IMG/VR virus record: IMGVR_UViG_3300030012_001141
Span: 1 to 60,104 of that record
DNA: 60,104 nucleotides
Direction: 5' to 3' (one strand)
Source: a virus
Shown here piece after piece: positions 7,675 through 57,440 of the stretch (the stretch's first letter is position 1; the number at the start of each line of letters is the position of its first letter). The notes beneath the pieces were generated by a model that was given only the letters and a program-made list of their open reading frames with translations, did not search any database and had not been told where the DNA came from. Both the position numbers and the translations under genes were made by a program.

Positions 7675-7676
7675 AA

Positions 7677-7940: not shown

Positions 7941-7952
7941 AAAAAAATAACA

Positions 7953-8237
7953 ATGGCTAAACAAATTGGAGAAGATACTAAAGTAACACTAGACCTAAAA
8001 ACAATAGGTATGGGTGCAGCAGGGTTAGCAGCTCTTATTGGGATGTGGTTTGCTCTTCAAGCAGACATAGCTTTAGCTAAAGAACTTCCTGAGCCATTAC
8101 CTGCAGAAGTTACTCGTATGGAGTTTGATATGAAAGATCAACTGATCCGTCAAACGATTATGACAACTCAAGAAGATGTATCAGAGCTGAAAGAAGACTT
8201 AGATCGCATTGAAGAAAAAATAGATAAACTACAATGA
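7953..8237 (+). CDS. Single-pass membrane protein with coiled coil, possible lysis protein
   Basis: 94 aa with one hydrophobic helix at residues about 18-36 (IGMGAAGLAALIGMWFAL) and a C-terminal coiled coil (DVSELKEDLDRIEEKIDKLQ). This arrangement is seen in small phage lysis proteins such as inner-membrane spanin or pinholin-like subunits. It overlaps the next start by 4 nt. The lysis assignment is inference from topology alone. Confidence 0.55.
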   Translation: MAKQIGEDTKVTLDLKTIGMGAAGLAALIGMWFALQADIALAKELPEPLPAEVTRMEFDMKDQLIRQTIMTTQEDVSELKEDLDRIEEKIDKLQ

Positions 8238-8572
8238 AGAATTTAATCTACATATGTTTGTTTGCAATGACATCTCTTGGTATGACTATACCAGATTCAG
8301 GGGTGTGTGTTGTTGAGTTTAACGCAAGTTTTAACGCAGCGAACAGTGTAGATTGGATTGATAACTTAAGCGATTGTAAAGGCAAGAGGGTGGACATTGT
8401 TGCTAGCCCTGATTTACAGAAAGAACACAAGATTGTGGTAGTGCCTACTGTTATCATATTTAACGACGGAGAGGAAGTAGAAAGATTTCAAGCGAACATT
8501 ATGATGCAACTTGAAGCTACACAAGATGATGTACAGGAAGCTATTGATGAAATTATAATGAGCGACTTTTAA
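8234..8572 (+). CDS. Exported thioredoxin-fold protein lacking the CxxC motif
   Basis: 112 aa. Residues 1-18 look like a signal peptide. The pattern VVEFNASFNAANSVDW matches the thioredoxin segment where WCxxC normally lies, but no Cys pair is present. The cis-Pro signature (VVVPTVIIFNDGEEV, about residues 69-83) is intact. A thioredoxin fold without the active pair would bind rather than oxidise or reduce its partner. It is coupled to the genes on both sides (ATGA and TAATG). Confidence 0.65.
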   Translation: MKNLIYICLFAMTSLGMTIPDSGVCVVEFNASFNAANSVDWIDNLSDCKGKRVDIVASPDLQKEHKIVVVPTVIIFNDGEEVERFQANIMMQLEATQDDVQEAIDEIIMSDF

Positions 8573-8925
8573 TGAAAGCCTGTAAGTGTCCACATAGCGA
8601 AGACAAGCCTAAATACAAGAAGGGCGGTAAGACTAGAAAGGCTAGAATGCCTAAAAAGTTCTCTGTAAAGAGTGGAGATAAGTCCGCTTCAGGAGGTTTA
8701 ACCGCTAAAGGTGTTAGACGTTATCGTGCTGCCAATCCAGGTAGCAAACTAAAGACCGCTGTAACAACAAAACCTTCTAAACTAAAAAAGGGTAGTAAGG
8801 CTGCAAAACGTAGAAAGTCTTTCTGTGCAAGAATGAAAGGCATGAAAAAAAGATTAACCAGCGCTAAAACAGCTAGAGATCCAAACTCTAGAATCAATAA
8901 GGCGTTAAGAAAATGGAACTGTTGA
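8572..8925 (+). CDS. Basic Cys/Lys-rich phage protein, DUF6321-like
   Basis: 117 aa, strongly basic. GGLTAKGVRRYRAANPGS, a central SKAAKRRKSFCARMKGMK and a C-terminal ARDPNSRINKALRKWNC fit a conserved small protein family of marine phages (DUF6321-like). The N-terminus carries the recurring KYKKGGK motif. It may bind nucleic acid or be packaged with DNA; function is unknown. Confidence 0.65.
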   Translation: MKACKCPHSEDKPKYKKGGKTRKARMPKKFSVKSGDKSASGGLTAKGVRRYRAANPGSKLKTAVTTKPSKLKKGSKAAKRRKSFCARMKGMKKRLTSAKTARDPNSRINKALRKWNC

Positions 8926-8926
8926 T

Positions 8927-9118
8927 ATGAAAGTAAACAAGTATAAAAAAGGTGGTAAGTTTTCTATATTAAACAAAAGTATGTCTATTGATCCACCAAA
9001 AGGTTATCACTGGATGGAGGAGTCTGGTAGATATTACTTAATGAAAGGAGATTATAAACCACATCCTGGTGCTGTAGCTAAAGCTAAGTTTAAGATGGCA
9101 GATCACCCTAAGAAATAA
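8927..9118 (+). CDS. Hypothetical basic protein with KKGGK motif (63 aa)
   Basis: The protein begins MKVNKYKKGGKFS, repeating the KYKKGGK motif of the preceding gene. It is otherwise small, Lys/His-rich and unrecognised, and it sits in a run of four genes that all carry this motif. Confidence 0.6.
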   Translation: MKVNKYKKGGKFSILNKSMSIDPPKGYHWMEESGRYYLMKGDYKPHPGAVAKAKFKMADHPKK

Positions 9119-9393
9119 TGGCAAAATCAGCAGCACAACAAGCAGCAATAGCTATTTCTATGAAGAAGGCTGGTAAAAAGCCTAAAGAGATGAAAAAGGG
9201 TGGTAAAATGAATTTTAACCCAAAGTATACTCGTGGAAGTTCTAATGTAGAAAAACGTAAAAAGCTAATGACTCAGATTAGCAACATATACAAAAAGTAT
9301 AGAGGGACTAAAGCAAAACGTAAAAAGAAGGGGTTTCCCCCTGCTGTAGCAGCAAGATTAAAAAAATTAATGGCACAAAGAGATAAGATATGA
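9118..9393 (+). CDS. Basic protein with QAAIAISMKKAGK segment and KKGGK motif
   Basis: 91 aa. The N-terminus (AAQQAAIAISMKKAGKKP) resembles the short QAVAIALSM module of DUF6496-like phage proteins; a version of this module also occurs inside the 1247-aa protein at 48634. MKKGGK follows, then a basic tail (KAKRKKKGFPP). It is coupled by overlapping start and stop codons. Confidence 0.55.
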   Translation: MAKSAAQQAAIAISMKKAGKKPKEMKKGGKMNFNPKYTRGSSNVEKRKKLMTQISNIYKKYRGTKAKRKKKGFPPAVAARLKKLMAQRDKI

Positions 9394-9617
9394 AGATATT
9401 TAAAAAAGGAGGCAAGTCTAAAGGTGGTGGTTACTCTAGCTTAGACGCTGCACAAAAGCAAGTTTATAAAAGAGGTTTAGCTGCATACATGAGTTCAGGT
9501 AATAGACCTAAAGTGTCTCAACATGCTTGGGCTATGGCTCGTGTAAAAAGTGCCTTTGGTAGAAAAGAAGCAGCTAAAATTAGAGCTGGGAAAGGTAAAA
9601 AGAAGACAAAGAAATAA
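9390..9617 (+). CDS. Basic protein with KKGGK motif (75 aa)
   Basis: Begins MKIFKKGGKSKGGG and continues with a helical segment (AAQKQVYKRGLAAYM, then HAWAMARVKSAFG) and a Lys-rich tail. It is the last gene before a promoter box at 9622, so it may end a transcription unit. No function is recognised. Confidence 0.6.
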   Translation: MKIFKKGGKSKGGGYSSLDAAQKQVYKRGLAAYMSSGNRPKVSQHAWAMARVKSAFGRKEAAKIRAGKGKKKTKK

Positions 9618-9621
9618 TCGC

Positions 9622-9629
9622 TATATTTG
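9622..9629 (+). promoter_or_regulatory. TATATTTG -7 box upstream of the head gene set
   Basis: A full match to TAnnTTTG in the 31-nt gap after 9617 and 19 nt before the ATG at 9649. It would drive the decoration, scaffold and capsid genes. Confidence 0.6.
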
Positions 9630-9648
9630 CATATAAATAACTATTAAA

Positions 9649-10068
9649 ATGGCAACAACTACTGCAACATTAACACTTTCGAGCGCTGACTTAACTGGTG
9701 ACGCTCTATCGTTGTCTACAACGGCAACACTAACGAAAGCTGGTACACTCACTGGTTTAGATCAAACTACTGGTGTAGCAAGAAGAACTTATTCATCTAC
9801 TTCTTTAGTAAATTTATTAGAAGGTAATGAATACACTGCTGCTAAAGCACATAAGGTTTACTTAAGAAATACAAGCACAGTAGCTACTGAGTACTTTACT
9901 ATTTCTATTGGAGACTCTGGAGGTACACCTGAAGAAATTGGTAGACTATATGCTGGAGACTGGGCTCTTATTCCTTGGTCTGCGCATGACGCTGCTAATG
10001 ACATTTGCATTACACCTAGCGTATCTACAGATATTACTCTTGAGTATATGGTAATTTTTGAAGCGTAA
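9649..10068 (+). CDS. Putative virion beta protein (decoration-like)
   Basis: 139 aa, Thr/Ser/Leu-rich and beta-predicted. It shares the core pattern (YLRNTST, a later GRLYAGDWALIPW, then a C-terminal strand EYMVIFEA) with its neighbour at 10068 and with the protein at 52942, so the three look like paralogues. Small beta proteins of this kind next to scaffold and capsid genes are usually head or tail decoration proteins. The stop overlaps the next ATG. Confidence 0.6.
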   Translation: MATTTATLTLSSADLTGDALSLSTTATLTKAGTLTGLDQTTGVARRTYSSTSLVNLLEGNEYTAAKAHKVYLRNTSTVATEYFTISIGDSGGTPEEIGRLYAGDWALIPWSAHDAANDICITPSVSTDITLEYMVIFEA

Positions 10069-10475
10069 TGGCTAATTTAAGGGTAGGCTTAACTGTAAAT
10101 AGTACTGACGTTCTTTCGTCTCCTTTGGCTCTTGCTGAAACATTTTCCGCTGCAGTAGATTCTGGAAGTTTAATTAGAGCAAAAGTAAAAGGTACAGCAG
10201 CAGATACAGACGATCTTCTAGTGTATAAGGCAAATGAAAAAAATGAAAGAGCTTACCTTTATATTAAAAACTTAGCTACAGAGCTTGAGCAATACATTTA
10301 CTTAAGAAATGAAAGTGAAGGTGACAACCCTTCTGGTAAAATTGGTGGTGGTGAGTTTGCTTTTATTCCTCTGGCTCCAGATAAAGATTATGAGGTTATT
10401 GCCACTAAGGTAGACACTCTTATAGAATATGGTGTATTTGGTAACGATAACTCTTCAGTATCAGGTAAAGGATAA
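10068..10475 (+). CDS. Putative virion beta protein, paralogue of 9649 product
   Basis: 135 aa with the same layout: an Ala/Ser-rich N-terminus, a YLYIKNLATELEQYIYLRN core, GGGEFAFIPLAP before a C-terminal strand IEYGVFG. It is probably a structural protein. It is 16 nt from the next gene. Confidence 0.6.
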   Translation: MANLRVGLTVNSTDVLSSPLALAETFSAAVDSGSLIRAKVKGTAADTDDLLVYKANEKNERAYLYIKNLATELEQYIYLRNESEGDNPSGKIGGGEFAFIPLAPDKDYEVIATKVDTLIEYGVFGNDNSSVSGKG

Positions 10476-10491
10476 TAAATAAGATAAAAAG

Positions 10492-10848
10492 ATGGCAACA
10501 TTAGCAAATCAAGGTATGGCCAACCAAATGGCTTTCGGTCAGCATGGTAGCACTCATATTGATGGCACTGGAGCTCACGTTCCGCCAACAGGTATGGTTT
10601 ACGTAGCTATTACTTGTTTAGAGGATACTACATTTACGAAACTTGAAGCTGAAGATCCGCTAAAACAATTTGGTACTGATACGGCTAGTCCTGACCCAGA
10701 TACAGATGGAGTTGGAGATACTGTCACTACATCAACTACGTTCCCAAAAGGAATTACTATTTATGGTAGATTTGACGCTATAACTTTAAATGGAGGTAAA
10801 GTATTAGCTTACCATGGTCCATCTAATTCTCCAATCCAGACAGCTTAA
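10492..10848 (+). CDS. Putative structural protein upstream of scaffold
   Basis: 118 aa, starting MATLANQGMANQMAFGQHG. The mid-region MVYVAITCLEDTTFTKL and the acidic DPDTDGVGD loop suggest a compact beta protein. Proteins of this type commonly precede capsid genes in marine phages. No precise function is known to me. Confidence 0.55.
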   Translation: MATLANQGMANQMAFGQHGSTHIDGTGAHVPPTGMVYVAITCLEDTTFTKLEAEDPLKQFGTDTASPDPDTDGVGDTVTTSTTFPKGITIYGRFDAITLNGGKVLAYHGPSNSPIQTA

Positions 10849-10870
10849 TAGAAATTAACAATTTAATATA

Positions 10871-12019
10871 ATGGAAAACGATAACTTCGAGAAAGTGGAG
10901 ATCTTTGATACTCCCGAACAACTTGCTGCCTCTATGCAGGCAGACGCACAACAATCTACAGAAGAGGCTCCACAACAGGAGTCTCAACCTGTTTCTGAGC
11001 AGCCTGTTCAAGAACAGCCAGAGCAAGTAGAACAAGTAGATAATGTGCAGCCTGAACCACAAGAAGAGGTACAGGAAGAAAGACAATATCAAGCGACTAC
11101 TGATGATTTTGTAGATAATCAAGAGTCGACTGAAAACAATATTCAACAGTATTCTGATCAGGAAATTGAAAACGCAGTATTTAACTACGTAAGCGAAAGG
11201 CTAGGACGTGAGGTTAGATCATTTGACGATTTTTCTCAACCTGAAAGTACACTGGATGAAAGAGTGCAAAAGATCGCAGAGTTTGTAAAAAACACGGGCC
11301 GCGATCCTCAAGATTGGTTTAGGTATCAATCGCTAAATCCTTCCGAAATGGATGACATTACAGCGATAAGAGTTCAATACTCTCAAAACTACCCAGACCT
11401 TAACTTTAATGAGATTAACACTCTTATATCTTCTAAGTACAAGCTTAATGCTGATGAACACTCTGATGAAGAAGTAAAAATTTCAACTTTGCAGTTAAAA
11501 ATTGATGCTGCAGATGCGCGTAATAAAATCACGGAAATTCGAGATACTTACGCTGCTCCAGTTCAATCTACTCCTTCTACAGAAACAGAAGAAAGTTACT
11601 TTGATGAATCATGGATGCAAGAAATGATCCGTGAGACATCAGACTTCGAAGGTCTAGAATTTGATCTTGGTAATGGTAAAACTTTCAACTTTGGTGTTGG
11701 AGATAACTATAAAAATAATCTCGTAAATAGACATCAAAAAATAGAGGATTACTTTGACAGGTATGTAGATAGCGATGGAAATTGGGATCATGATACCTTT
11801 AATTCTCATCAAACGCTTATTGACAACATTGACAATATAGTCGCTTCGGCTTATCGTCAAGGTCTTGGAGATGGGCAAAGAGGACTTGTGGATAGAGCTG
11901 CAAATGTATCTACTGCAACTCCTACTGCTACACCAGCTTCGAATGATGTTAATTCGTTAGCTGAGCAGGTAAAGAACATTATGGGGGCAACCTCAAATAA
12001 AATGACTTTTAAAATTTAA
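10871..12019 (+). CDS. Putative scaffolding protein
   Basis: 382 aa. The first ~80 residues are highly acidic and Gln/Pro/Glu-rich (QPVSEQPVQEQPEQ), hence disordered; the rest is predicted mostly helical, and the C-terminus ends in a short basic helix (NKMTFKI). An acidic, low-complexity protein directly before the capsid gene is the standard position and composition for a scaffold. The gap to the capsid start is 13 nt. Confidence 0.7.
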   Translation: MENDNFEKVEIFDTPEQLAASMQADAQQSTEEAPQQESQPVSEQPVQEQPEQVEQVDNVQPEPQEEVQEERQYQATTDDFVDNQESTENNIQQYSDQEIENAVFNYVSERLGREVRSFDDFSQPESTLDERVQKIAEFVKNTGRDPQDWFRYQSLNPSEMDDITAIRVQYSQNYPDLNFNEINTLISSKYKLNADEHSDEEVKISTLQLKIDAADARNKITEIRDTYAAPVQSTPSTETEESYFDESWMQEMIRETSDFEGLEFDLGNGKTFNFGVGDNYKNNLVNRHQKIEDYFDRYVDSDGNWDHDTFNSHQTLIDNIDNIVASAYRQGLGDGQRGLVDRAANVSTATPTATPASNDVNSLAEQVKNIMGATSNKMTFKI

Positions 12020-12032
12020 AAACTAAGAAACA

Positions 12033-13466
12033 ATGGCAACTATTGGAACAGATAGAACTGCAAGTACAGGTAATTTACCTCCGATTGATGGAACAGCTGC
12101 TGGTAACAATCCAGCAGCATTTCGTATTAGTCCAGAGACTTACACTACTGTAGATTCTTTAATCAAAACAACTAAGGACTTTGTTATGCCTAATCTCGTT
12201 GAAACATACGGTGATCAAGGTATTACAGGATTCTTAAAACTAACTGGCGCAATCAACGCTGGTGGACAATCTGACCAGATCGACTGGTGGGAAATGGGTC
12301 GTCGTCACAAGACGTTGGCTTACACAGCTGGAAACACTACTATTGGTGCTTCTGGTGTTAACGTAACTATTACAGATTCAGCTGTTACTGAAGCTGTTCA
12401 AGCACAAGACGTTCTTATGGACGTAGGTACTGGTGCTCGTTTCATCGTTAAGTCTGGTGGATTCGGAACAGGTTCAGCTGCTGACGTTGTGCTTATTAAG
12501 CTTGACGGAACTGCTGCTGTAGAAGATACAGATATCGATGCTTCAGCTGGTGGTACACTTATCAAGATTGGTAACATGTACGCACAAGGAACAAACCAGC
12601 CTACTGCATTTGACGAGCCAGGTGTTCGCAGATACTCTAACCCATTCATGATCGTTAAAGATCGTTATGAGGTTAATGGATCTCAAGCGACTAACATCGG
12701 CTGGGTTAACATCGGTGGCGGTGAGTACCGTTGGTTCATGAAGGGTGAGCAAGAAGCTCGCGCTCGTTTTGAGGACCGTCGTGAACTTATGATGCTATTC
12801 GGTGAGAAGAATGATGGATCAGGTGCTCAAGCTCTTGATGATAATCTTGCTGGATCTGAAGGTTACTTCTCAGCTATCCAAGATCGTGGTATCCAAGTAT
12901 CTAACGCTAACGCAAACCCACTTGATTCATTCTCTGAGTTTGATGATATTATCATGGAGCTTGATAAGCAAGGTGCGCCTTCTGAGTACGCTATGTACGT
13001 AAACAGAAAGCAAGACCTAGCTATCGACGACATGCTTGCTACAGGTTTAGCTACTTCAGTTACTGCTGGTCTTCCAGGACAGTTCGGAGCATTCAATAAC
13101 GACGCTGATATGGCTGTAAAGCTAGGATTTAAGTCGTTTACTCGTGGTGGATACACTTTCCACAAGCACGATTGGAAGCTTCTTAACGATCCTACTCTTC
13201 TAGGTGCATCTAACTTTATTCAAGGGGCTATGATCCCAATGACTCAAGTTGCTGACGCACGTAGCGGAATGAAGGCTCCAGCTCTAGCGATGTACTACAA
13301 GGAAGCTAATGGCTACTCTCGTGAGATGGAGCACTGGGTAACTGGTAGTATTTTAGGTCACACTAACAACGGTGATGTTGGATCAGATAACGCTGTATTC
13401 CACTACCGTTCAGAAATCGCTCTTTGCGTACGTGGTGCGAATCAGCACGTAATGATTAAGGGTTAA
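12033..13466 (+). CDS. Major capsid protein (HK97-fold expected)
   Basis: 477 aa. It follows the putative scaffold and precedes small decoration-like genes. The codons are notably more GC3-rich and uniform than in neighbouring genes (frequent GTC, GGT, CGT, AAC), as expected for a very highly expressed gene. The sequence has the length and alternating helix/strand make-up of HK97-type capsids, with DQIDWWEMGRRH resembling a conserved segment of crAss-like capsid proteins. The identification is by position, size and codon use. Confidence 0.8.
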   Translation: MATIGTDRTASTGNLPPIDGTAAGNNPAAFRISPETYTTVDSLIKTTKDFVMPNLVETYGDQGITGFLKLTGAINAGGQSDQIDWWEMGRRHKTLAYTAGNTTIGASGVNVTITDSAVTEAVQAQDVLMDVGTGARFIVKSGGFGTGSAADVVLIKLDGTAAVEDTDIDASAGGTLIKIGNMYAQGTNQPTAFDEPGVRRYSNPFMIVKDRYEVNGSQATNIGWVNIGGGEYRWFMKGEQEARARFEDRRELMMLFGEKNDGSGAQALDDNLAGSEGYFSAIQDRGIQVSNANANPLDSFSEFDDIIMELDKQGAPSEYAMYVNRKQDLAIDDMLATGLATSVTAGLPGQFGAFNNDADMAVKLGFKSFTRGGYTFHKHDWKLLNDPTLLGASNFIQGAMIPMTQVADARSGMKAPALAMYYKEANGYSREMEHWVTGSILGHTNNGDVGSDNAVFHYRSEIALCVRGANQHVMIKG

Positions 13467-13493
13467 TTGTTTAACTATTAAAACTTAATTATT

Positions 13494-13946
13494 ATGGCTA
13501 CATTTAATTACGGATCAGGAGCTGTTATTGCTGCAAAAGTAGTAACAGTAAAAGACGCAGTTGTAAACGGAGTTGACACTTCTTTTGAAGTTGATCAGCC
13601 AGCTAAATCATTTCTATCAGGTGTATTTATTAAAGTTAACAGTGCTGTTGCTATGGACAGCGGTAGCGTTGGTTTTAATATTGGTGATGCTTCAGGAGAG
13701 ACTGATATCTTTAATGATACAGACTTCTTCTTATCTTCAGGTACTGCTATCCCAAAAGATACAATATACCACATCACATCATCTGATCTTGGTAGACAAG
13801 CTGCTGGTAATGGATCTCCAGCTTTAGCAAAAGGGTACACGGATACTGATAGAAAGATCTTTGCTTTTATTGACAACCCTTCGGTTTCAATAACTTCAGC
13901 GGGAACTTTTGAAGTTCACTTTCAGTTTACTCACTTCGCAAATTAA
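13494..13946 (+). CDS. Putative head decoration protein
   Basis: 150 aa, predicted all beta (VFIKVNSAVAM, then VGFNIGDASGETD, and a C-terminal FEVHFQFTHFAN). It lies 27 nt after the capsid gene with a similar codon style, which suits an abundant head-surface protein. The family is unassigned. Confidence 0.6.
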   Translation: MATFNYGSGAVIAAKVVTVKDAVVNGVDTSFEVDQPAKSFLSGVFIKVNSAVAMDSGSVGFNIGDASGETDIFNDTDFFLSSGTAIPKDTIYHITSSDLGRQAAGNGSPALAKGYTDTDRKIFAFIDNPSVSITSAGTFEVHFQFTHFAN

Positions 13947-26277: not shown

Positions 26278-27288
26278 ATGGCTTATTTTGAAGGACAAAC
26301 ATTAGCATTTTCACATAAAGGTGGGTTTTGGAAAACTAGATACAGTTTTACGCCTACGTGTTATGCTTCTGTAGATAATAAATTTATTTCTACTAACGGT
26401 AAACATCCTGACGCTGATGAAGAGACAGATGATGTTAACTTCTGGATGCATGAGTCTAATACGAGACACAACAATTTTTATGGAAAGGACTTCCCATCTA
26501 GGGTTATTGTGGTTGCAAACAATACTCCGAGCTCTGTAAAGCTATTTAAAGCGCTCTCTATTGAAAGCAATTCTAATGAATGGACGGGGATGTGCAGCAC
26601 TAACATAAACCCGTTAGGAAGCCCTCAAAATGATCTTCAAATGGGTGATATAAAGGAATTTACAACTAAAGAAGGTACTCAATATGCAGAATTGCCAAGA
26701 GATTTATCCAACTCAGACAGCAATGTTGATTATTGCTGCAGGATTGATGTTATTATAGATGATAATACGTCTTTTGATGCTAACATCCCTGAGGGTTTGG
26801 TGCAACCAGTTTCTGCTACATTCAGAGCTAATCTTTTAGGTTCACCGCCTGCAGTTTCTGTTAACGGAGGTGAAGGTGTAGCTTTATTCTTTGACGGTGA
26901 AACTTTTAGATACTTCAATATGAATGGAGAAGTATTTACATACACCACTTATAATGAAGCTGTAAGCAACAATGCAGTATATGTTGAGTTTTACGATGGA
27001 GTAGATCGAGATGTTGTATTTACGGGTAGATTGTCGCAACCTAACTTTGATGCAAATCAACTGTCTGAAGCTGTAGCTAATATAGGGACTTCAGTATATG
27101 TAGTATCTAATCCAGATGTTAATGGTGATCCAATGAGAGGTCATTATATATATTTAGATCTTACAAACAACTCTAGGTATTCAGTAGAAACATATGCCAT
27201 TAATGTAGATTTTGAACCCACTAAGCTTGATGCTTCGATTGTTAGAGGGGCAAAAGCAACTAAAACTACTAGAGCCAGTAAGAAGTAA
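26278..27288 (+). CDS. Tail protein, crAss-like partner of the preceding gene
   Basis: 336 aa. The segment KGGFWKTRYSFTPTCYASVDN, followed by RHNNFYGKDFPSRVIVV, NNTPSSVKLFKALSIESN and EWTGM, matches the C-terminal part of crAss-like tail proteins. In several of those phages it is continuous with the protein encoded just upstream, so here the large tail protein appears split in two, 2 nt apart. The second half is a beta domain with a basic tail. Structural role likely. Confidence 0.7.
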   Translation: MAYFEGQTLAFSHKGGFWKTRYSFTPTCYASVDNKFISTNGKHPDADEETDDVNFWMHESNTRHNNFYGKDFPSRVIVVANNTPSSVKLFKALSIESNSNEWTGMCSTNINPLGSPQNDLQMGDIKEFTTKEGTQYAELPRDLSNSDSNVDYCCRIDVIIDDNTSFDANIPEGLVQPVSATFRANLLGSPPAVSVNGGEGVALFFDGETFRYFNMNGEVFTYTTYNEAVSNNAVYVEFYDGVDRDVVFTGRLSQPNFDANQLSEAVANIGTSVYVVSNPDVNGDPMRGHYIYLDLTNNSRYSVETYAINVDFEPTKLDASIVRGAKATKTTRASKK

Positions 27289-42583: not shown

Positions 42584-42764
42584 ATTCACCTGCTTTCATA
42601 CCCCATAACATATCACGTGGCATCTCATCGAATACCACCATGCTATCTTTTTCATTGGGTGCATTTTGTACTAGCGTCTGTGCTTCTTCTCTTGTTAGTG
42701 AGTGGAATAGGATATCCTTCTTGAAGTTATCTCTATACACTCGGTATACTGCGTAATTTTTCAT
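42576..42764 (-). CDS. Hypothetical protein (62 aa)
   Basis: MKNYAVYRVYRDNFKKDILF, then SLTREEAQTLVQNAPNEKDS. A small alpha/beta protein layout often seen among phage early genes. No family recognised. Confidence 0.6.
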   Translation of the reverse strand: MKNYAVYRVYRDNFKKDILFHSLTREEAQTLVQNAPNEKDSMVVFDEMPRDMLWGMKAGEYE

Positions 42765-42925
42765 TTTGTGTGTGATTTAATTGCGTCAATAAGCATTTCT
42801 CTTGCGTGTGTCGGATCGGATAGCACCGCATGTACTAACCATGCGAACTCATTGTCTAGCGTTTCCTTATCACCTATCATGTACTCAATGTACTCGTCTG
42901 CTTTTGTTTGTGTTTCGTAACTCAT
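42761..42925 (-). CDS. Hypothetical protein (54 aa)
   Basis: I choose ATG 42925 (MSYETQTKADEYIEYM), 7 nt after the upstream stop; the longer start at 42973 would overlap the gene at 42933. Acidic and helical. No family recognised. Confidence 0.55.
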   Translation of the reverse strand: MSYETQTKADEYIEYMIGDKETLDNEFAWLVHAVLSDPTHAREMLIDAIKSHTK

Positions 42926-42932
42926 TTTGTTT

Positions 42933-43082
42933 TTATTTAATTGGTTCATCCATATCCATTCTTTCTTTATCATCTTTGTCTGACTTAGTGTCCACTAGGT
43001 GGACATTAGTAATTAGTTCAGCTAGTTCGTGCATACTGAATGATGCGAAGCCTGTCTGTGTTTTTGGTTTACGCTTGCTCAT
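42933..43082 (-). CDS. Small protein containing the VHLVD dyad insert (49 aa)
   Basis: MSKRKPKTQTGFASFSMHEL, then ITNVHLVDTKSDKDDKERMD. The VHLVD residues are encoded by the 15-bp dyad at 42990-43004. The start overlaps the upstream gene by 14 nt. The basic N-terminus and acidic C-terminus flank the repeat. No family recognised. Confidence 0.5.
   Translation of the reverse strand: MSKRKPKTQTGFASFSMHELAELITNVHLVDTKSDKDDKERMDMDEPIK
42990..43004. repeat. Dyad repeat, copy 1 (GTCCAC-TAG-GTGGAC)
   Basis: A perfect 6-bp inverted repeat with a 3-nt centre. It lies inside the 49-aa gene, in the VHLVD frame. Confidence 0.9.
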
Positions 43083-43233
43083 GTCTTTTGTGGTTTAATG
43101 TTCTACCTCTATCGAGAATGTTTTCTCCTTCAGCCATACCTAGTTGGTAGTACTGCCTCCATGCATCGCATGAAAGGAAGTTGTTGAACCAATCAAGGTA
43201 CATAGCTTCGGCTTGTTCGTCAGTGTAATTCAT
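43069..43233 (-). CDS. Hypothetical protein (54 aa)
   Basis: MNYTDEQAEAMYLDWFNNFL, then DAWRQYYQLGMAEGENI. Aromatic-rich and helical. Its end overlaps the start of the next gene. No family recognised. Confidence 0.58.
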   Translation of the reverse strand: MNYTDEQAEAMYLDWFNNFLSCDAWRQYYQLGMAEGENILDRGRTLNHKRHEQA

Positions 43234-43234
43234 A

Positions 43235-43438
43235 TCATTGTACTATGTCTTGGTAGAAGATGTGCTTACCATCTTCACTGATGTAACCTGCATCGATCAG
43301 GGCTGATGCAGTTCGCCCGTAGCTACCTTGTAGCGTCCATGCCATGCCATTCTTGATTAGCTCAGAGAATAGTTCTAGCACTCCTGTGTCGTCTAAAAGA
43401 CCACACTCGAAGTCAATTATTTTGTCTGTTAAATTCAT
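43235..43438 (-). CDS. Conserved small phage protein, DUF7417-like
   Basis: 67 aa. IIDFECGLLDDTGVLELFSE, then GMAWTLQGSYGRTASALIDAG fits a very widespread small phage protein (FE-x-G-x-L ... WxLQGxYGRxAxxLI). Function unknown; usually in early regions. Confidence 0.65.
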   Translation of the reverse strand: MNLTDKIIDFECGLLDDTGVLELFSELIKNGMAWTLQGSYGRTASALIDAGYISEDGKHIFYQDIVQ

Positions 43439-43440
43439 GA

Positions 43441-43539
43441 TTAAAATAGTTCTTTTATTAGTTGTACTTTTTCTGCGTCTGTTAATTCATCGCTATCGAG
43501 TATGTTGATTAGATAGCACTCAAATTCTTCTGTATTCAT
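43441..43539 (-). CDS. Hypothetical peptide (32 aa)
   Basis: An acidic helical peptide (MNTEEFECYLINILDSDEL), 2 nt before the next gene and overlapping the previous one by 4 nt. The tight junctions support coding. Confidence 0.5.
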   Translation of the reverse strand: MNTEEFECYLINILDSDELTDAEKVQLIKELF

Positions 43540-43751
43540 GCGTATACTATTTCTGTTTCGTTAACTCTTTCTATTGCTTTGGCTAGATTCTCTAGTGCCT
43601 CTACTCTTTCTCGCAGTATATCCTCATCGTCTATACCGCAGTCGTAGTACCCATTGATATCCCAATGGCAGTCATCGTGGTTGTATGCATCTTCAGATGT
43701 TAGTTCGTCTAACTTATCGTTTACTCTTGTGTATCTTTTTAGTAAATCCAT
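43536..43751 (-). CDS. Hypothetical acidic protein (71 aa)
   Basis: MDLLKRYTRVNDKLDELTSE, an acidic Cys/His/Asp-rich middle (DDCHWDINGYYDCGID) that might bind metal, and a helical end. The upstream junction has the AACCAATAAAA pattern shared by two other genes here. No family recognised. Confidence 0.6.
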   Translation of the reverse strand: MDLLKRYTRVNDKLDELTSEDAYNHDDCHWDINGYYDCGIDDEDILRERVEALENLAKAIERVNETEIVYA

Positions 43752-43761
43752 GATGTATGTT

Positions 43762-44043
43762 TTATTGGTTTATTTCAATTAGTTTTCCATTTAATTCTTC
43801 GTATTGGAAGTCTGTAGGGCATTCCCACTCAGTCCAATAATATTCCCCTAGATTATAGCTTTCAGCTAGTATGTAATCGTCAGATAACTCGTTGTCCTTG
43901 TCTACATTCCATGAGCGGAGAAGAGCGATAAGGTCTTTCTCGTACTTGATGTGCATAAATCCATCGCCTACTACATAGCCATCATTCATGCCTTCACCTG
44001 TTATATCACATTTTCTTGCGTACTGTTCTCGTGTATTACTCAT
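43762..44043 (-). CDS. Conserved phage protein with CDITGEGMNDGYVVGDG motif
   Basis: 93 aa. The N-terminal pattern CDITGEGMNDGYVVGDGFMH recurs in phages and gut elements of Bacteroidota. It has one Cys near the start and an acidic aromatic C-terminus ending NQ. Its first residues (MSNTRE) are the same as those of the next upstream gene. Function unknown. Confidence 0.65.
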   Translation of the reverse strand: MSNTREQYARKCDITGEGMNDGYVVGDGFMHIKYEKDLIALLRSWNVDKDNELSDDYILAESYNLGEYYWTEWECPTDFQYEELNGKLIEINQ

Positions 44044-44049
44044 CTTTTT

Positions 44050-44241
44050 TTATTGGTTTGTTGTGAACTTAAAATAAAACGGATTAAGATTATGTTCCTT
44101 TCTTAATTTCATTTTAGCTTCTTCTAAATTTTTTGCCATTATTTTTAACTCAAATTCTCTTTCCTTTTGATAGAGCTTGTAACTTGATGGCTTAAATATT
44201 TGGTGGTCGTGCTTTACGATATACTCTCGTGTATTACTCAT
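44050..44241 (-). CDS. Hypothetical basic protein (63 aa)
   Basis: Start chosen at ATG 44241 (MSNTREYIVKHDHQIF), which matches the next gene's start sequence and gives a simple 8-nt overlap; a longer start at 44265 would overlap more. Lys/Glu-rich helix (IMAKNLEEAKMKLRKEHN). Ends NQ. Confidence 0.55.
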   Translation of the reverse strand: MSNTREYIVKHDHQIFKPSSYKLYQKEREFELKIMAKNLEEAKMKLRKEHNLNPFYFKFTTNQ

Positions 44242-44512
44242 CGTCTTGTCCATAAGGTGCGTCATTAAATGATTTAAACTCTTTGTGGTATAGTTCCTTT
44301 GCTTTTACGGATAGCATTTCTGTGTCGCATTGCTCAAGCTCTGCTTCGCCTAGCGTATCCCATATCTCGTGGTACAAGTCATTTTCAAACGGAAATGGTT
44401 CTGTATCACCTAGCGTTATTCTTTCAACGCTTGATGTTGTTAGTTCGTCAGGTAAAGCTACCTCGATTGTTGTGGTGTATGTACGCACCACTTCTATTTC
44501 AAATAGTTTCAT
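44234..44512 (-). CDS. Hypothetical acidic protein (92 aa)
   Basis: MKLFEIEVVRTYTTTIEVAL begins a beta hairpin typical of small phage proteins with an RTY-x-T-I-E-V strand; the rest is acidic and helical. Unknown function. Confidence 0.6.
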   Translation of the reverse strand: MKLFEIEVVRTYTTTIEVALPDELTTSSVERITLGDTEPFPFENDLYHEIWDTLGEAELEQCDTEMLSVKAKELYHKEFKSFNDAPYGQDDE

Positions 44513-44781
44513 GATTCTAAGTATTCTTCTTTTAACCTTTTTAGATTATGGTAGTATTCGGTCTGTGCCTCGTCGTATCTCTCTCGCAATTCTGCTCGGT
44601 GTTCTGAATCCATACCTTCGTAGCTATTAGAATGCATTTCACACTCTGCTTGTAACCAGTCGTAGTTCGATGCCAGGTCGCTGAATCGGTAGCGTAGGTT
44701 AAGTAGCTGCTCTGCGTAGACTTCTGGCTTTGATACAATTGCTTGCGCAAGTTTTTCGATAAGTTCTTTTTTAATAGTCAT
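44509..44781 (-). CDS. Hypothetical helical protein (90 aa)
   Basis: Mostly coiled coil (IKKELIEKLAQAIVSKPEVY ... DEAQTEYYHNLKRLKEEYLE). Overlaps the next gene by 4 nt. No family recognised. Confidence 0.6.
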   Translation of the reverse strand: MTIKKELIEKLAQAIVSKPEVYAEQLLNLRYRFSDLASNYDWLQAECEMHSNSYEGMDSEHRAELRERYDEAQTEYYHNLKRLKEEYLES

Positions 44782-44782
44782 G

Positions 44783-45271
44783 TTAATCTTGATTTAATTT
44801 ATATAAATAACTCGTTGTATGTCTTTGATATTCTTTGCCCGTTTCTATATTCATAAAAACTTGTATCACACTTGTATATTTTCTAGTATTTGAAGTTATC
44901 CTGTCTATCATGTGTGTAGGTAAACCTGCTTTCTTTAAAGCCGACTTAGTTATCCTACCATGTATTTTAGTGTTATGTTTTATGCGTTTCTTTTTCTTAG
45001 TTAAGCTATATAATTCAAATTCTCTAAACCTATCCATTTCAAATGGTCTCCCATTTGCCTCGTCTAGACGCATCCAACTTCTTTTTAATTTTCTACATTC
45101 TTTACTAAATTCATCAGGTGTGAATTCTCTGTAAGTATCATGAAATATCCTATGATATTTGAATACATATAAGTTCTTTCCGTTCATCGTACCCATTCTA
45201 GCTATATCAAAAGGCCTCAAGTCGAAAGGGTGTGTTGAAATAAAATTTTCTGTATCTGCCTGTAAATTCAT
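44783..45271 (-). CDS. Hypothetical basic protein (162 aa)
   Basis: One of the larger genes of the small-gene cluster. A Phe/Arg-rich N-terminal domain (FDLRPFDIARMGTM, then YVFKYHRIFHDTYREF) and a basic middle (LTKKKKRIKHNTKIHGRITK) that could bind nucleic acid. The dyad copy 2 lies 16 nt upstream of its ATG. No family recognised. Confidence 0.58.
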   Translation of the reverse strand: MNLQADTENFISTHPFDLRPFDIARMGTMNGKNLYVFKYHRIFHDTYREFTPDEFSKECRKLKRSWMRLDEANGRPFEMDRFREFELYSLTKKKKRIKHNTKIHGRITKSALKKAGLPTHMIDRITSNTRKYTSVIQVFMNIETGKEYQRHTTSYLYKLNQD

Positions 45272-45287
45272 CTCCGATCTGATTTGT

Positions 45288-45302
45288 GTCCACTAGGTGG
45301 AC
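45288..45302. repeat. Dyad repeat, copy 2 (GTCCAC-TAG-GTGGAC)
   Basis: Intergenic, in the 34-nt gap between the stop at 45306 and the ATG at 45271; 16 nt upstream of that ATG, so it would also lie in the mRNA leader. Confidence 0.9.
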
Positions 45303-45305
45303 AGT

Positions 45306-45500
45306 TTACATTTCTGTTAGTATTTCCATTGCCTTGTCCATCGCATAGGCACGTTGTTGCGTCATAGTACCTGACGTTTGTGGTGTAGGTAGCATGATGT
45401 GTGTTGGGTAAGGTTTGGTGTCCAACCTATAAAACTCGTCTTTCCTTTGGATAGCGTTAGCCATTTGGCGTTGGTGGTGTAGTTTCTCCTGTAAAGTCAT
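45306..45500 (-). CDS. Hypothetical protein (64 aa)
   Basis: I place the start at ATG 45500 (MTLQEKLHHQRQMANAI), 2 nt after the upstream stop; an upstream ATG at 45599 lies within the previous gene. Gln/His/Met-rich and helical at both ends, with a YPTHIMLPTPQTSG turn region. No family recognised. Confidence 0.55.
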   Translation of the reverse strand: MTLQEKLHHQRQMANAIQRKDEFYRLDTKPYPTHIMLPTPQTSGTMTQQRAYAMDKAMEILTEM

Positions 45501-45502
45501 GA

Positions 45503-45724
45503 TTAGTATGATTTGATTATAGTGCTGATGCCGAATTGTTGAGCAACATATCTGATGTGCTTCTGTGTAGTGCGTGTTGCTTCTGTAACGTGCGACCAAT
45601 TATGTTGCTTCATAATCCCACCACGTTTGAACGTAGCAACGTGCGTGCCGTAGCTATACACTTTGAACTCTCCATTGTCCACTGGGTGGACAGAAAGGTT
45701 TTTCTTGTATTTATCTAACTTCAT
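45503..45724 (-). CDS. Small protein with VHPVD dyad insert (73 aa)
   Basis: MKLDKYKKNLSVHPVDNGEF, then KVYSYGTHVATF and helices (HIRYVAQQFGISTII). Residues VHPVD come from the variant dyad copy 3. The strand-turn-helix layout could be a small DNA-binding or regulatory fold. The upstream junction has the AACCAATAAAA pattern. Confidence 0.58.
   Translation of the reverse strand: MKLDKYKKNLSVHPVDNGEFKVYSYGTHVATFKRGGIMKQHNWSHVTEATRTTQKHIRYVAQQFGISTIIKSY
45677..45691. repeat. Dyad repeat, copy 3, variant centre (GTCCAC-TGG-GTGGAC)
   Basis: Both 6-bp arms are intact. Only the centre differs (TGG instead of TAG). It lies in the coding region of the 73-aa protein near its N-terminus. Confidence 0.9.
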
Positions 45725-45727
45725 GTT

Positions 45728-45895
45728 TTATTGGTTTAAATCGTCATACTGTTCAGCGAGGCACTCTACCTCTTCATCGTGTATGGCTACATTCAGGTAC
45801 TCCGATACGTCGATGTAAAGTTTACCGTCTAGCTCTTCGCTAGGCGTTTCGTAGCGTACTTCAAGTACGAATGATGCTTTTTCTAATTGTGTCAT
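45728..45895 (-). CDS. Hypothetical acidic protein (55 aa)
   Basis: MTQLEKASFVLEVRYETPSE, then LYIDVSEYLNVAIHDEEVEC, ending LNQ. Beta-rich and acidic; short enough to be an inhibitor-type protein, but nothing specific is recognised. Overlaps the previous stop by 4 nt. Confidence 0.55.
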   Translation of the reverse strand: MTQLEKASFVLEVRYETPSEELDGKLYIDVSEYLNVAIHDEEVECLAEQYDDLNQ

Positions 45896-46290
45896 AGTAA
45901 TATATCTTTTTGGTTTTTACAGTCGTAGATTGCGATTTCGCCACGTTTTTTCGCTATGTCCGTAGCTACGTCAAGGTTATACAGATGTTGCACAAGGTCG
46001 AAGTATATCTGCCCTTCGTGTATCCATGTACCCACTCCCATACCTGCCTTGTACAAGTTGCTCGTGTATTCGGGTAGTAGCATTTCGTACTTATCCCATA
46101 GCTTTTTGAATGCTTTGAAGTGCGCTCTTGTATCAGGGTATGCACTGCCGTCAACCTCTGCATACATAGTGGTTGGCTCAACTACACCGCCTACGATGTA
46201 ACCTTCGGTTGGGTTGATTGTGCCATCTGCAAGGCGTGTATATCCGCCATCAAGTAGCGTGTCGATGTACGCTTTTTTCTCTTGTGTCAT
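45892..46290 (-). CDS. Conserved phage protein of unknown function (132 aa)
   Basis: TEGYIVGGVVEPTTMYAEVD, then GMGVGTWIHEGQIYFDLVQH and AKKRGEIAIYDCKNQ form a pattern seen in many phages (GVGTWIHxGxxYxDL ... AKxRGExAI). Unknown function. Dyad copy 4 lies 14 nt upstream of the ATG. Confidence 0.65.
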   Translation of the reverse strand: MTQEKKAYIDTLLDGGYTRLADGTINPTEGYIVGGVVEPTTMYAEVDGSAYPDTRAHFKAFKKLWDKYEMLLPEYTSNLYKAGMGVGTWIHEGQIYFDLVQHLYNLDVATDIAKKRGEIAIYDCKNQKDILL

Positions 46291-46295
46291 CTTAA

Positions 46296-46385
46296 TTATA
46301 TTATGTCCACTAGGTGGACAATGTTAAACTCTGATTGCATATCTGCTAATGCTTCGTGCATAGCTTGTAATTCTTGCTCGTTCAT
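46296..46385 (-). CDS. Possible 29-aa peptide ending in VHLVD
   Basis: MNEQELQAMHEALADMQSEF followed by NIVHLVDII. Its ATG overlaps the upstream stop (TAATG), and the last residues come from dyad copy 4. Small size limits confidence. Confidence 0.45.
   Translation of the reverse strand: MNEQELQAMHEALADMQSEFNIVHLVDII
46305..46319. repeat. Dyad repeat, copy 4 (GTCCAC-TAG-GTGGAC)
   Basis: At the 3' end of the 29-aa frame and 14 nt upstream of the next ATG at 46290. Confidence 0.9.
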
Positions 46386-46687
46386 TACATTATGTATTTA
46401 ATAGTTGTTAAAATCATAGCACTTATTCCAATGCAAGTAGACACAACTCCTATAATTGCAAATGCTTTTATTAGTCGGTCTGAATATGCCTTGTTTCGTT
46501 TAATACTCTTAGCTTTTAGTTTAGCTTTAAGTTGCTTAATTGCACGTTCACGCTCCTCACGTTCACGCTCTACTTTTCTACCTTGTAATATCAATGCCCT
46601 TACTTCCTCATAGGTAGTCTTATATTTTGGAGGTTCGTAACCACCTGCGTAGTAACCGCTTACTTTCTTTTCTTCTTTTTCATACAT
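46385..46687 (-). CDS. Membrane protein with coiled coil (100 aa)
   Basis: A charged coiled-coil stretch (KVEREREERERAIKQLKAKL) precedes a C-terminal transmembrane helix (IIGVVSTCIGISAMILTTI). The N-terminus contains YYAGGYEPP. Likely tail-anchored in the inner membrane. Dyad copy 5 lies 31 nt upstream of the ATG, adjacent to a near -7 box (TTACTTTG). Function unknown. Confidence 0.6.
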   Translation of the reverse strand: MYEKEEKKVSGYYAGGYEPPKYKTTYEEVRALILQGRKVEREREERERAIKQLKAKLKAKSIKRNKAYSDRLIKAFAIIGVVSTCIGISAMILTTIKYIM

Positions 46688-46718
46688 GATTTCTAGTTAT
46701 TAGATAGCGCAAAGTAAT

Positions 46719-46733
46719 GTCCACTAGGTGGAC
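46719..46733. repeat. Dyad repeat, copy 5 (GTCCAC-TAG-GTGGAC)
   Basis: Intergenic, in the 74-nt gap between 46687 and 46762. Followed on the minus strand, 1 nt later, by TTACTTTG, one base off the -7 consensus, so it could overlap a promoter. Confidence 0.9.
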
Positions 46734-46761
46734 AATACCAAGTCTATTTTGTTAATCAATG

Positions 46762-47286
46762 TTAAAAAGCTACTTCTTCAACTTCAGTTAGTTCAATGAT
46801 AGCCATTTCGGTACGCTCAAGCTCATTGAGTAAAGTCTTAAGATTCTCTATTATCTCCGCCTTATCGCCGTTCATTGATACGTTTAGATTCTCGTCTAGT
46901 CGTACACTACCTCCGCCAATTTCTTTAGAGGTTGTGAACGTGTACCACGTTTTGGGTTTGTCCTCAGCGTCTGGCTTCATGAAAGCTAATAACCCTTTAA
47001 TTGAGTACGTTGCCGTTTCCACACTGTCAATGTATCGTTGAACGTCCTCAGCTTTTACTTCTGCTGACTGTCTGAGATATCCGAAAAAGGTCTTTTTATA
47101 TCCGTATGCTTCGACTAATTGGTCTCGCTTCATGCGCTTATCTTTTGGTGTGCATTTCCAAATTTCGTAACCTTCGGCGCATAGCTTACCGATTTCCAGT
47201 TGTACTTTGAAGGCCTGTAGACTTCCTTTCATTGCCTTAGCATTTAGCTTTAGGACTTTGTTGATATTGGCTTTTAAGTTATCCAT
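46762..47286 (-). CDS. Hypothetical protein (174 aa), possible early regulator
   Basis: A Lys-rich helical N-terminal half (VLKLNAKAMKGSLQAFKVQL, then KDKRMKRDQLVEAYGYKKTF) and a beta/helix C-terminal half ending in acidic residues. The gene is preceded by a 118-nt leader full of inverted repeats, as regulators often are. No domain is named with confidence. Confidence 0.55.
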   Translation of the reverse strand: MDNLKANINKVLKLNAKAMKGSLQAFKVQLEIGKLCAEGYEIWKCTPKDKRMKRDQLVEAYGYKKTFFGYLRQSAEVKAEDVQRYIDSVETATYSIKGLLAFMKPDAEDKPKTWYTFTTSKEIGGGSVRLDENLNVSMNGDKAEIIENLKTLLNELERTEMAIIELTEVEEVAF

Positions 47287-47308
47287 AACTGTTTTATTTT
47301 AATATTGT

Positions 47309-47322
47309 GCGCATTGTTGCGC
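47309..47322. repeat. Inverted repeat GCGCA-TTGT-TGCGC
   Basis: A 5-bp-arm hairpin 23 nt upstream of the ATG at 47286, within the leader that also contains CGATA-TG-TATCG (47378-47389) and dyad copy 6. Confidence 0.6.
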
Positions 47323-47388
47323 TTGTTTACTTGAGTTAACGTCCTAGTTTTTTAACGTCAGCTATGACCTGCTGACCCGATATGTATC

Positions 47389-47403
47389 GTCCACTAGGTG
47401 GAC
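47389..47403. repeat. Dyad repeat, copy 6 (GTCCAC-TAG-GTGGAC)
   Basis: Begins on the last base of CGATATGTATCG (47378-47389) and ends 1 nt before the stop codon at 47405. It is the copy nearest the start of the minus block. Confidence 0.9.
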
Positions 47404-47404
47404 G

Positions 47405-47641
47405 TTAGGCGTGCATCATTCGCGCCTCTTTTCGTGCTCTTCGTGCCTCTCGTCGTGCCTCACGTTGGCATGTTGCTTTTGCCTCGTACCTGTCGCGCAG
47501 TGTCGACTCAGCGATACGGTGCGAGTACCAATTTATCAGTGCATCAACTTTGTGCTGACTGTCTGACGCTTTGCGCTTTGCATTGCGCCTTACCTTCATG
47601 GGTTGCGCTCTGTGTCGCCTGTCGTGTAGTATCGTGTTCAT
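47405..47641 (-). CDS. Arg-rich small protein, first gene of the minus block
   Basis: 78 aa from ATG 47641 (MNTILHDRRHRAQPMKVRRN); an ATG at 47650 would add three residues. Extremely basic (REARREARRARKEARMM). Probably binds DNA or RNA. Being promoter-proximal, it would be made very early. A possible minus-strand promoter (TTG at 47686-47684, 21-nt spacer, CATCTTTG at 47662-47655) sits directly before it. Confidence 0.5.
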   Translation of the reverse strand: MNTILHDRRHRAQPMKVRRNAKRKASDSQHKVDALINWYSHRIAESTLRDRYEAKATCQREARREARRARKEARMMHA

Positions 47642-48328
47642 AATTTTCATACCCCAAAGATGCGGGTATTGATTTCACAAAACCAAATTAAAAATGTTAA
47701 CAAGTGTTAAAATTTAAATCCCATTTTTCCGTAGATAGGAACGCACACGCGAGATGTAAAGTAAAGGTTTAAGTAAATGAACATAACTTATTGAATACCA
47801 ACCACTTAGCATAAATTTAACATTCGTTAACAGTGTAACTTATTGATTATCAGTTAGTTAGCACTTCTCCAAAAAGTAATACCTAACTACCAGCGAAGCC
47901 ATTGAAGCTCTTAAAACGGCTTAAAATGGCTCGGTGTTAAAATATGTTAAATGTTTTGTATTTTGCCTTTTGTTATGTATAGCGAATTGTTAGACATGAC
48001 TAATAAAATAGTTTAGGTAAGACTAAATAATACCCACTCGTTTTTGAATGATAATATATATTATGTTAAGTGAGTAGTTGGTTTGTCCCTTTCTCCTTTG
48101 TTACTCATTATCAAAGCAAAGCAATGCTTTATTTATTTAATTGCTTTAGTATACATACCTTAAGTAATTGAATACTAGTAACTTACAGTAAAAAGCTAGA
48201 TTTATACAGCAAAAAAACAAAAAAAACAAGGGGACGGCGTTAAAAAAAGTTAATTTTATTTTACAAAAAAATCTGTTTTTATAATATATAATCCCCACAC
48301 TCCTTATTTCTGACGTTTTTTCGTGGGT

Positions 48329-48368
48329 TCCCCGACTACTACGATCAAATCGGCTCCCCGACTACTAC
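48329..48368. repeat. Direct repeat TCCCCGACTACTAC, two copies 26 bp apart
   Basis: Exact 14-bp copies at 48329-48342 and 48355-48368 in the gene-free region. They could be binding sites (iteron-like). Confidence 0.75.
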
Positions 48369-48620
48369 ATCTTAACTCCTTGATTACTAAACAGTTACGC
48401 AAAAGTCTTAAAGTAAAGCTTTAGCACTTGACTTTTAAAAAAAAAAGTGGTAACTTAGCCAGCGAATGTAGCGGATTACGCGATTAACTTCCGAAATGAG
48501 GGTATTTGTAAGCGTAAACAGTCTATCTGATACAAGACTAGCTATATTTAGTGGAATACGCCCTAACTATACCCATGTATGTTTACTGTTTGGGGTGATC
48601 TATTAAAAGATTCCTTTTAT

Positions 48621-48628
48621 TACCTTTG
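48621..48628 (+). promoter_or_regulatory. TACCTTTG -7 box, 5 nt before the ATG
   Basis: TACCTTTGC is among the best forms of the Bacteroidota -7 element. The ATG at 48634 begins 5 nt after it, again predicting a leaderless or nearly leaderless transcript. No clear -33 at normal spacing. Confidence 0.65.
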
Positions 48629-48633
48629 CACCA

Positions 48634-56852: not shown

Positions 56853-57440
56853 ATGAAAACATTTAATTTATTTGTCGTTAAGTTAGATAAAACACTTCAC
56901 GACACTATAACCACAGATAGTGGTTTGGAACTTTACATTGATAATAGGTTCAATGAATTTGAAAACAGAGTAACGGAGGGCCCAGTTGTAGCAATACCTT
57001 TTAAATATCAGACAGGTGTTAAAGAAGGTGATACTTTATACTTTCATCATCTTGTTGTTATGAATGATGGTCAAGTTTTAACTGGTGAGGATAATACATA
57101 TATAGTCCGCTACGATCCAGATTTTGCTGTAAATAATCAAGCTATAGCATATAAGTGTCAAAACGACGGTAAGATAAGATGTCTTGCTGGTTGGTGTTTA
57201 TTAAAACCTGTAGAACAAAAGGAGTTAACACTTCAGTCTGATATTATAGAAGTGGTAGATAATAGCGAAAAACTACCAACAAAAGGGGAGGTAGCTTATT
57301 TGTGTGAAGAAGGTAAGGAAATGGGTTTAGAGCCTGGGGATATTGTTGGCTTTAAAGAAAATAGAGATTATCGTATAACTATAGACGGGCAAGAATACTA
57401 TCGGACTCGTGCAGAAGACTTATATGGAGTTTATGTCTAA
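56853..57440 (+). CDS. GroES-like co-chaperonin with two tandem Cpn10 domains
   Basis: 195 aa. Domain 1 (~residues 1-95): VVKLDKTLHDTI, then VTEGPVVAIPFKYQTGVKEG, DTLYFHHL. Domain 2 (~110-195): WCLLKPVEQKELTL, TKGEVAYLCEEGKEMGLEPG, DIVGFKENRDY, ending with RAEDLYGV. Each repeats the Cpn10 pattern (V-x-x-G-x-V ... G-x-x-V-x-F). Phage co-chaperonins such as T4 gp31 adapt host GroEL to fold the capsid protein; a tandem arrangement gives both domains in one chain. The 57433 gene overlaps by 8 nt. Confidence 0.72.
   Translation: MKTFNLFVVKLDKTLHDTITTDSGLELYIDNRFNEFENRVTEGPVVAIPFKYQTGVKEGDTLYFHHLVVMNDGQVLTGEDNTYIVRYDPDFAVNNQAIAYKCQNDGKIRCLAGWCLLKPVEQKELTLQSDIIEVVDNSEKLPTKGEVAYLCEEGKEMGLEPGDIVGFKENRDYRITIDGQEYYRTRAEDLYGVYV

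Follow-up and report, generated by a model that had tools for sequence, protein, structure and literature searches.

The present analysis concerns a stretch of 60,104 nucleotides (nt), hereafter the window, which corresponds to the whole of the IMG/VR virus record IMGVR_UViG_3300030012_001141, and a 15-base-pair (bp) dyad, GTCCACNNNGTGGAC, found in it in six copies. All six lie in the minus-strand block of early genes (42990 to 47403). The preferred reading, to which a probability of roughly 0.45 is given, is that the dyads are dispersed, stoperator-like sites of one phage regulator, most likely the product of gene 46762, which would control the leftward early operon. The copies are listed below in the order of transcription, followed by this gene.

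47389 to 47403, minus strand: dyad copy 1, in the leader of gene 46762; reads C-GTCCAC-CTA-GTGGAC-G and lies one base past the stop of open reading frame (ORF) 47405-47650.
46719 to 46733, minus strand: dyad copy 2, between genes 46762 and 46385, the ATG of the latter following after 31 nt; has an ortholog in the related contig L009.
46305 to 46319, minus strand: dyad copy 3, in the tail of the 29-codon ORF 46296-46385; the ATG of gene 45892 follows after 14 nt.
45677 to 45691, minus strand: dyad copy 4, within gene 45503-45724, where it reads VHPVD, a peptide missing from the homologous proteins, whose length varies at this point; centre CCA; an in-frame GTG is found 15 nt further on.
45288 to 45302, minus strand: dyad copy 5, in an intercistronic gap; the ATG of gene 44783-45271 follows after 16 nt.
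42990 to 43004, minus strand: dyad copy 6, within gene 42933-43082, where it reads VHLVD; an ATG of ORF 42761-42973, doubtful as its start, follows after 16 nt.
46762 to 47286, minus strand: gene 46762, encoding 174 amino acids, assigned to no family; best candidate for the site-binding protein; its homologs are found only in dyad-bearing contigs.

The dyad was searched with up to two mismatches, and the background was taken from dinucleotide shuffles. The same six copies only were returned (shuffles: mean 0.51, maximum 3, never six). As the window is the whole record, no copies are found elsewhere in it. On the coding (minus) strand, five copies read GTCCAC-CTA-GTGGAC and one reads GTCCAC-CCA-GTGGAC; the 6-bp arms are perfect in 6/6. 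The centres on the plus strand are thus TAG (five copies) and TGG (one copy). The seventh pair, outside the arms, is T-A in five copies and C-G in the 47389 copy. Among the perfect 6-bp inverted repeats of the window (spacers 0 to 8), the dyad arm alone is present at least three times, its own shifted reading aside. These results confirm what had been reported from a first, sequence-only reading of this DNA: the six coordinates with perfect 6-bp arms, the sole centre variant (TGG at 45677), the absence of any other intact copy, and the location of three copies 14 to 31 nt before starts (45288, 16 nt; 46305, 14 nt; 46719, 31 nt).

The arms are conserved in relatives. The close relative L009 (IMGVR_UViG_3300030108_003318) carries three dyads at places orthologous to the 47389, 46719 and 46305 sites. 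At two of the three, the flanks are 92-96% identical and the centre is unchanged (one site) or altered by one base (the other); the ortholog of the 46305 copy has a TTA centre and intact arms. At the leader copy (47389), the flanks are 22% identical, which is the random level, whereas the arms are kept (12/12 bases) and the outer pair is changed from C-G to T-A; the dyad is therefore under selection. Selection acts on the arms while flanks and centres drift, the direct evidence being that of the leader copy. Arm conservation in related phages, on which the sequence-only reading had made its case depend, is thus found across diverged flanks. The bases ACATA directly follow the leader dyad (window 47380-47388) in the window, L009, L010, L160 and L218, though the remainder of the leader has diverged.

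More distant relatives carry sites of the type GTCCGC-N3/4-GCGGAC. Five dyads of the form GTCCGCAA[GA]T[GA]CGGAC are found in L010 (46762 homolog 43-44% identical), those of L160 (homolog 36% identical) and L149 read GTCCGCACTGCGGAC, and that of L218 has the form GTCCGCCCAAGCGGAC. The spacer is 3 nt in most phages and 4 nt in L010 and L218; two off-pattern dyads of L010 carry a C-A mismatch. Over 19 aligned copies (12 distinct, and including one degenerate dyad from L144), 92.9% of the cells are paired versus 88.2% in shuffles. The covariation score of these 19 copies is 0.262 versus 0.159 in shuffles; it is above all 500 shuffles and is derived from a small number of changes, most of them A-T to G-C at arm position 5. 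The L144 dyad (GTTCAC-GTA-GTGAGC, at 7561-7575 in the homolog of gene 42933) still pairs, with one U-A for C-G and one G-U; it belongs to a contig without gene 46762 and may be a relic or a coincidence. The dyad is absent from the small ORF of L144 that is homologous to the 46305 region. No other repeated hairpin family comparable to the dyad was found in a scan of 80 relatives.

The dyad is found together with gene 46762. A profile search with the 46762 family retrieved members in the window, L009, L010, L160 and L218, all of which carry the dyad (5/5). The comparison is based on 80 loci with a homolog of gene 41200, 25 of which reach at least 6.5 kb upstream and have no 46762 homolog; no dyad is present in the upstream region of these relatives (0/25). 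When 50 contigs were searched over their whole records, only two stray single matches (G023, G034) were gained beyond the known set and L053, an unrelated contig described below. The dyad is also present in L149, but this contig begins within the operon, so that presence of the gene there cannot be judged. Dyads lie on both sides of gene 46762 in the window, L009 and L010. A dyad is found just 3′ of the homolog in L010 and L160; the L160 copy located 5′ of the gene is degenerate. As the site becomes GTCCGC..GCGGAC in phages with more distant 46762 homologs, site and protein change together. Involvement of the 46762 protein, a guess of the sequence-only reading, gains support: relatives have the site with the gene, and those without the gene lack it in the region compared. 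The 46762 product is the best-supported partner of the dyad, which it is predicted to bind, whether the mechanism involves DNA or RNA.

Searches of Pfam and PHROGs, and of the PDB by sequence and by fold, gave nothing usable for the 46762 protein, neither a family nor a solved relative. One hit was to an unnamed viral predicted structure (A0A516LX85; E-value 1.3e-3, 20% identity). The model of its 106 N-terminal residues (pLDDT 90.7) consists of six helices; the stretch 54-74, with helices at 54-61 and 65-74, looks, by eye, like a candidate helix-turn-helix. Two single-protein scans and one genome scan gave no more homologs. No close relative was found among INPHARED phages in DNA and protein searches with the 41200-41718 gene, the 46762 protein and the L053 block.

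The distance between dyad and start codon is frequently fixed. In 46762-type phages, the end of the dyad lies 14-17 nt before an ORF-opening ATG in 9 of 17 copies, versus 3-4% of positions. Among the 12 copies with a start 8-60 nt away, 9 are at 14-17 nt and seven at exactly 16; the window and L009 copies included in these counts are not independent, and the start taken for the 42990 copy is doubtful. Homologs suggest that the true start of ORF 42761-42973 may be located further in. For the leader copies, the next start is over 90 nt away.

The same spacing is found in L053 (IMGVR_UViG_3300032332_000710). This contig carries 13 copies of GTCCAC-ACT-GTGGAC (one with AGT) at 7067-13540, confined to its own divergent block of early small genes, and 7 of the 13 lie 15-17 nt before an ATG. 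L053 was found through an IMG/VR search by arm pattern, which otherwise gave mostly single copies, at chance level, and no other unrelated contig with many. Its shared arms are therefore a selection effect and may be a coincidence; its spacing was not selected for. When 257 Gb of bacterial and archaeal genomes were scanned, GTCCACCTAGTGGACA turned up in 14 contigs, one copy in each, which is not above chance. Many intact copies in unrelated host DNA, which the sequence-only reading had named as refuting its case, are thus not found.

Two side observations concern other phages. L044 (4956-6316) and L124 (301-2650, more in the latter) contain 5-6 dispersed longer dyads, approximately GGTYG-GGGACA-NNN-TGTCCC-CRACC, whose distance from starts is not fixed and which look like a classical multi-site operator. 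A conserved non-coding stretch (TAACGACATACC..GTGAGCGTCTGGC..GATCCGCTAGGGTGTGATGCCCCTACCCG) is found in L136 (8890-8980), 3′ of the homolog of gene 45306, and also in L137, L148 and L149. It could possibly correspond to a small RNA; no Rfam match is found in L136, and the window lacks this stretch at the same place.

According to the preferred reading, every 15-bp dyad would be occupied in its DNA form by the 46762 protein, probably a dimer that contacts each 6-bp arm with one helix-turn-helix-like unit. Within each phage, the arm sequence is fixed and the centre varies. All copies of the 46762-type phages and of L053 are free of G-U among the six arm pairs, the sole arm G-U being that of the doubtful L144 sequence. 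These features, with half-sites about one helical turn apart, give the dyad the look of a DNA site read by a dimer. The dyads on either side of gene 46762 would lead to autoregulation. The downstream intercistronic dyads would block initiation or elongation of transcription in the manner of stoperators, and the early genes would be shut off, the sign of the control thus being repression. In such a compact operon, about 16 nt to the ATG could be the shortest distance that leaves the palindrome, which also folds in mRNA, outside the ribosome landing zone. Several points weigh against this reading. A DNA operator by itself gives no reason to expect so narrow a spacing to starts (14-17 nt). The 46762 protein matches no helix-turn-helix family or solved fold. 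A spacer of 4 instead of 3 (L010, L218) moves the half-sites by one base. There are only five 46762 homologs, two of which are close relatives, and none is detected in L053, in spite of its identical arms and like spacing. No integrase was noticed among the window proteins examined, so that a lysogeny repressor is not implied.

The dyad could alternatively act in mRNA, a tentative reading that is held nearly as probable. It would form a stem of 6-7 bp with a loop of 3-4 nt just upstream of the ribosome landing site and would be either a translational operator, possibly of the 46762 protein, or an insulator or processing signal between cistrons, governing how accessible the start of the next gene is. 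The spacing, both in the 46762-type phages and in the unrelated L053, speaks in its favour. In addition, the asymmetric centre never changes its orientation to transcription within a phage, the predicted probability of stem formation is about 0.98 in most copies, a centre of 3 or 4 nt would be tolerated as a loop, and the covariation score exceeds that of every shuffle. In Flavobacterium, mRNA structure and not Shine-Dalgarno pairing governs start choice (PMC6847099), which is also counted in favour. On the other side, a fixed stem sequence with a varying loop is the opposite of most protein-bound hairpins, the intact arms contain no G-U pairs, the leader copies are remote from the next start, two window copies lie within genes, and the covariation comes from few events. 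No match at or above the gathering score of Rfam 15 was found anywhere in the window. A more specific form of this reading appears doubtful: in a dedicated system of post-transcriptional control, a phage protein with no known fold would read the stem-loop about 16 nt before starts and jointly switch translation of several small early genes, in hosts not reliant on Shine-Dalgarno pairing, and unrelated phages such as L053 would share this device or have converged on it. The operator of a phage regulator and the RNA hairpin controlling translation, both candidates of the sequence-only reading, survive and are inseparable by sequence analysis.

Early promoter or terminator signals are improbable. 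A TATAAT-like stretch follows the 46305 copy, and some copies pass a loose terminator scan. However, promoter-like sites are rarer in the block than in shuffles (13 versus 19.7), no common -10-like sequence follows the dyads, and most copies have no T tract 3′ of the stem in the direction of transcription. A sigma-70-like match was found around the 46305 copy only, in a scan that does not cover Bacteroidota promoters.

A reading as a mobile element or recombinational boundary, akin to repeated stem-loop cassettes, is slightly less probable still. The dyads precede different genes according to the phage; for example, a dyad stands before the MNYTDEQ gene in L160 but is missing there in the window. 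This candidate, proposed earlier from the sequence, is not supported by the surroundings of the copies. No longer repeat unit is found, and the 20-nt flanks of the window copies are on average 31-34% identical to one another versus 27% expected from composition. The L144 homolog of gene 42933 aligns without gap across the dyad, and the homologous L144 junctions without site have no trace of insertion.

Chance or coding-sequence coincidence can be dismissed almost entirely: VHLVD or VHPVD is encoded, in the same frame, by three copies, but six copies against 0.5 expected at two mismatches and the arms kept across diverged flanks at the leader refute it.

Among known systems, the closest in the proposed mode of action are the stoperators of cluster A mycobacteriophages, which are the sites of the L5 gp71 and Bxb1 gp69 repressors (PMC3029335, PMC9283540). 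Both systems have many short intergenic sites per phage, in one orientation to transcription (PMC3029335), linked to a phage-encoded regulator (a candidate one for the dyad), and in both the site sequence shifts together with the regulator between phages. In the window, the orientation of the centre is constant in 6/6 copies, and most copies are intercistronic or at gene ends. Stoperators are asymmetric and 13 bp long; a monomer binds them, and temperate phages carry 24-34 copies genome-wide (PMC3029335, PMC9283540). In contrast, the dyad has 15 bp with perfect 6-bp arms, and its six copies are restricted to the early block of a phage in which no integrase was noticed. The cluster A repressor has helix-turn-helix and Stoperator domains; the 46762 protein matches neither and has no visible sequence kinship with it.

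Cluster K mycobacteriophages carry SAS and ESAS repeats, whose function is unproven (PMC3203893, PMC12699233). Like the dyad, these repeats lie at a fixed short distance before starts, in their case of non-structural genes, and ESAS, which are inverted repeats too, have a different consensus from one subcluster to another. SAS are located 3-8 nt before the start. SAS have a fixed 13-bp sequence (GGGATAGGAGCCC), whereas no such motif separates the dyad from the ATG and the dyad has no SAS partner. ESAS have 17-bp imperfect arms and a spacer of mostly 4-13 bp, whereas the dyad has 6-7 bp perfect arms and a centre of 3-4 nt and lies about 16 nt before the start. Of the literature retrieved on phage hairpins linked to starts, only the SAS/ESAS reports are close. 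The dyad would act like stoperators and is placed like SAS/ESAS but fails the defining features of both; it is therefore a member of neither.

Two other systems are comparable in part. The SPbeta repeated elements (SPBRE), bound by MrpR/YopR, are dispersed operators of one phage master repressor, as proposed for the dyad; they belong to a Bacillus prophage, and their site and protein differ from the dyad and 46762. The PeSL of T4-type phages are repeated intergenic stem-loops among early genes and form a moving cassette with an early promoter, whereas no longer unit adjoins the dyad copies and no common promoter-like element was seen next to them in a scan that leaves Bacteroidota promoters uncovered. 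Judged from its sequence features, the dyad is a regulatory repeat of the dispersed phage type; its site and its candidate protein family are new, and its distance from start codons is unusual.

The window phage is uncultured and is placed near the crAss-like viruses on the basis of a crAss-type muzzle protein C-terminal domain (PF25729) at 26278-27288. It also encodes a BT4734-like primase-helicase, an exonuclease VIII-like protein and a DnaA-domain-IV protein; from these four proteins, the host is likely to belong to the Bacteroidota. The dyads lie in a leftward early unit beginning near 47,700, with the 47389 copy between the first small ORF and gene 46762. About 950 bases without genes (47680-48630) separate this unit from the rightward late unit; this stretch contains a direct repeat (GTAGTCGGGGA) near 48320-48370 and is a candidate early promoter or origin region. 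A GroES-like co-chaperonin (Cpn10, PF00166) is encoded at 56853-57440.

The dyad is a repeated, conserved site tied to one gene without known function, in a group of crAss-like phages for which few regulators have been described. This tie between site and gene makes the function of the 46762 protein directly testable. The fixed spacing to starts also reopens the question raised by SAS/ESAS, namely whether such phage repeats act in DNA or in mRNA.

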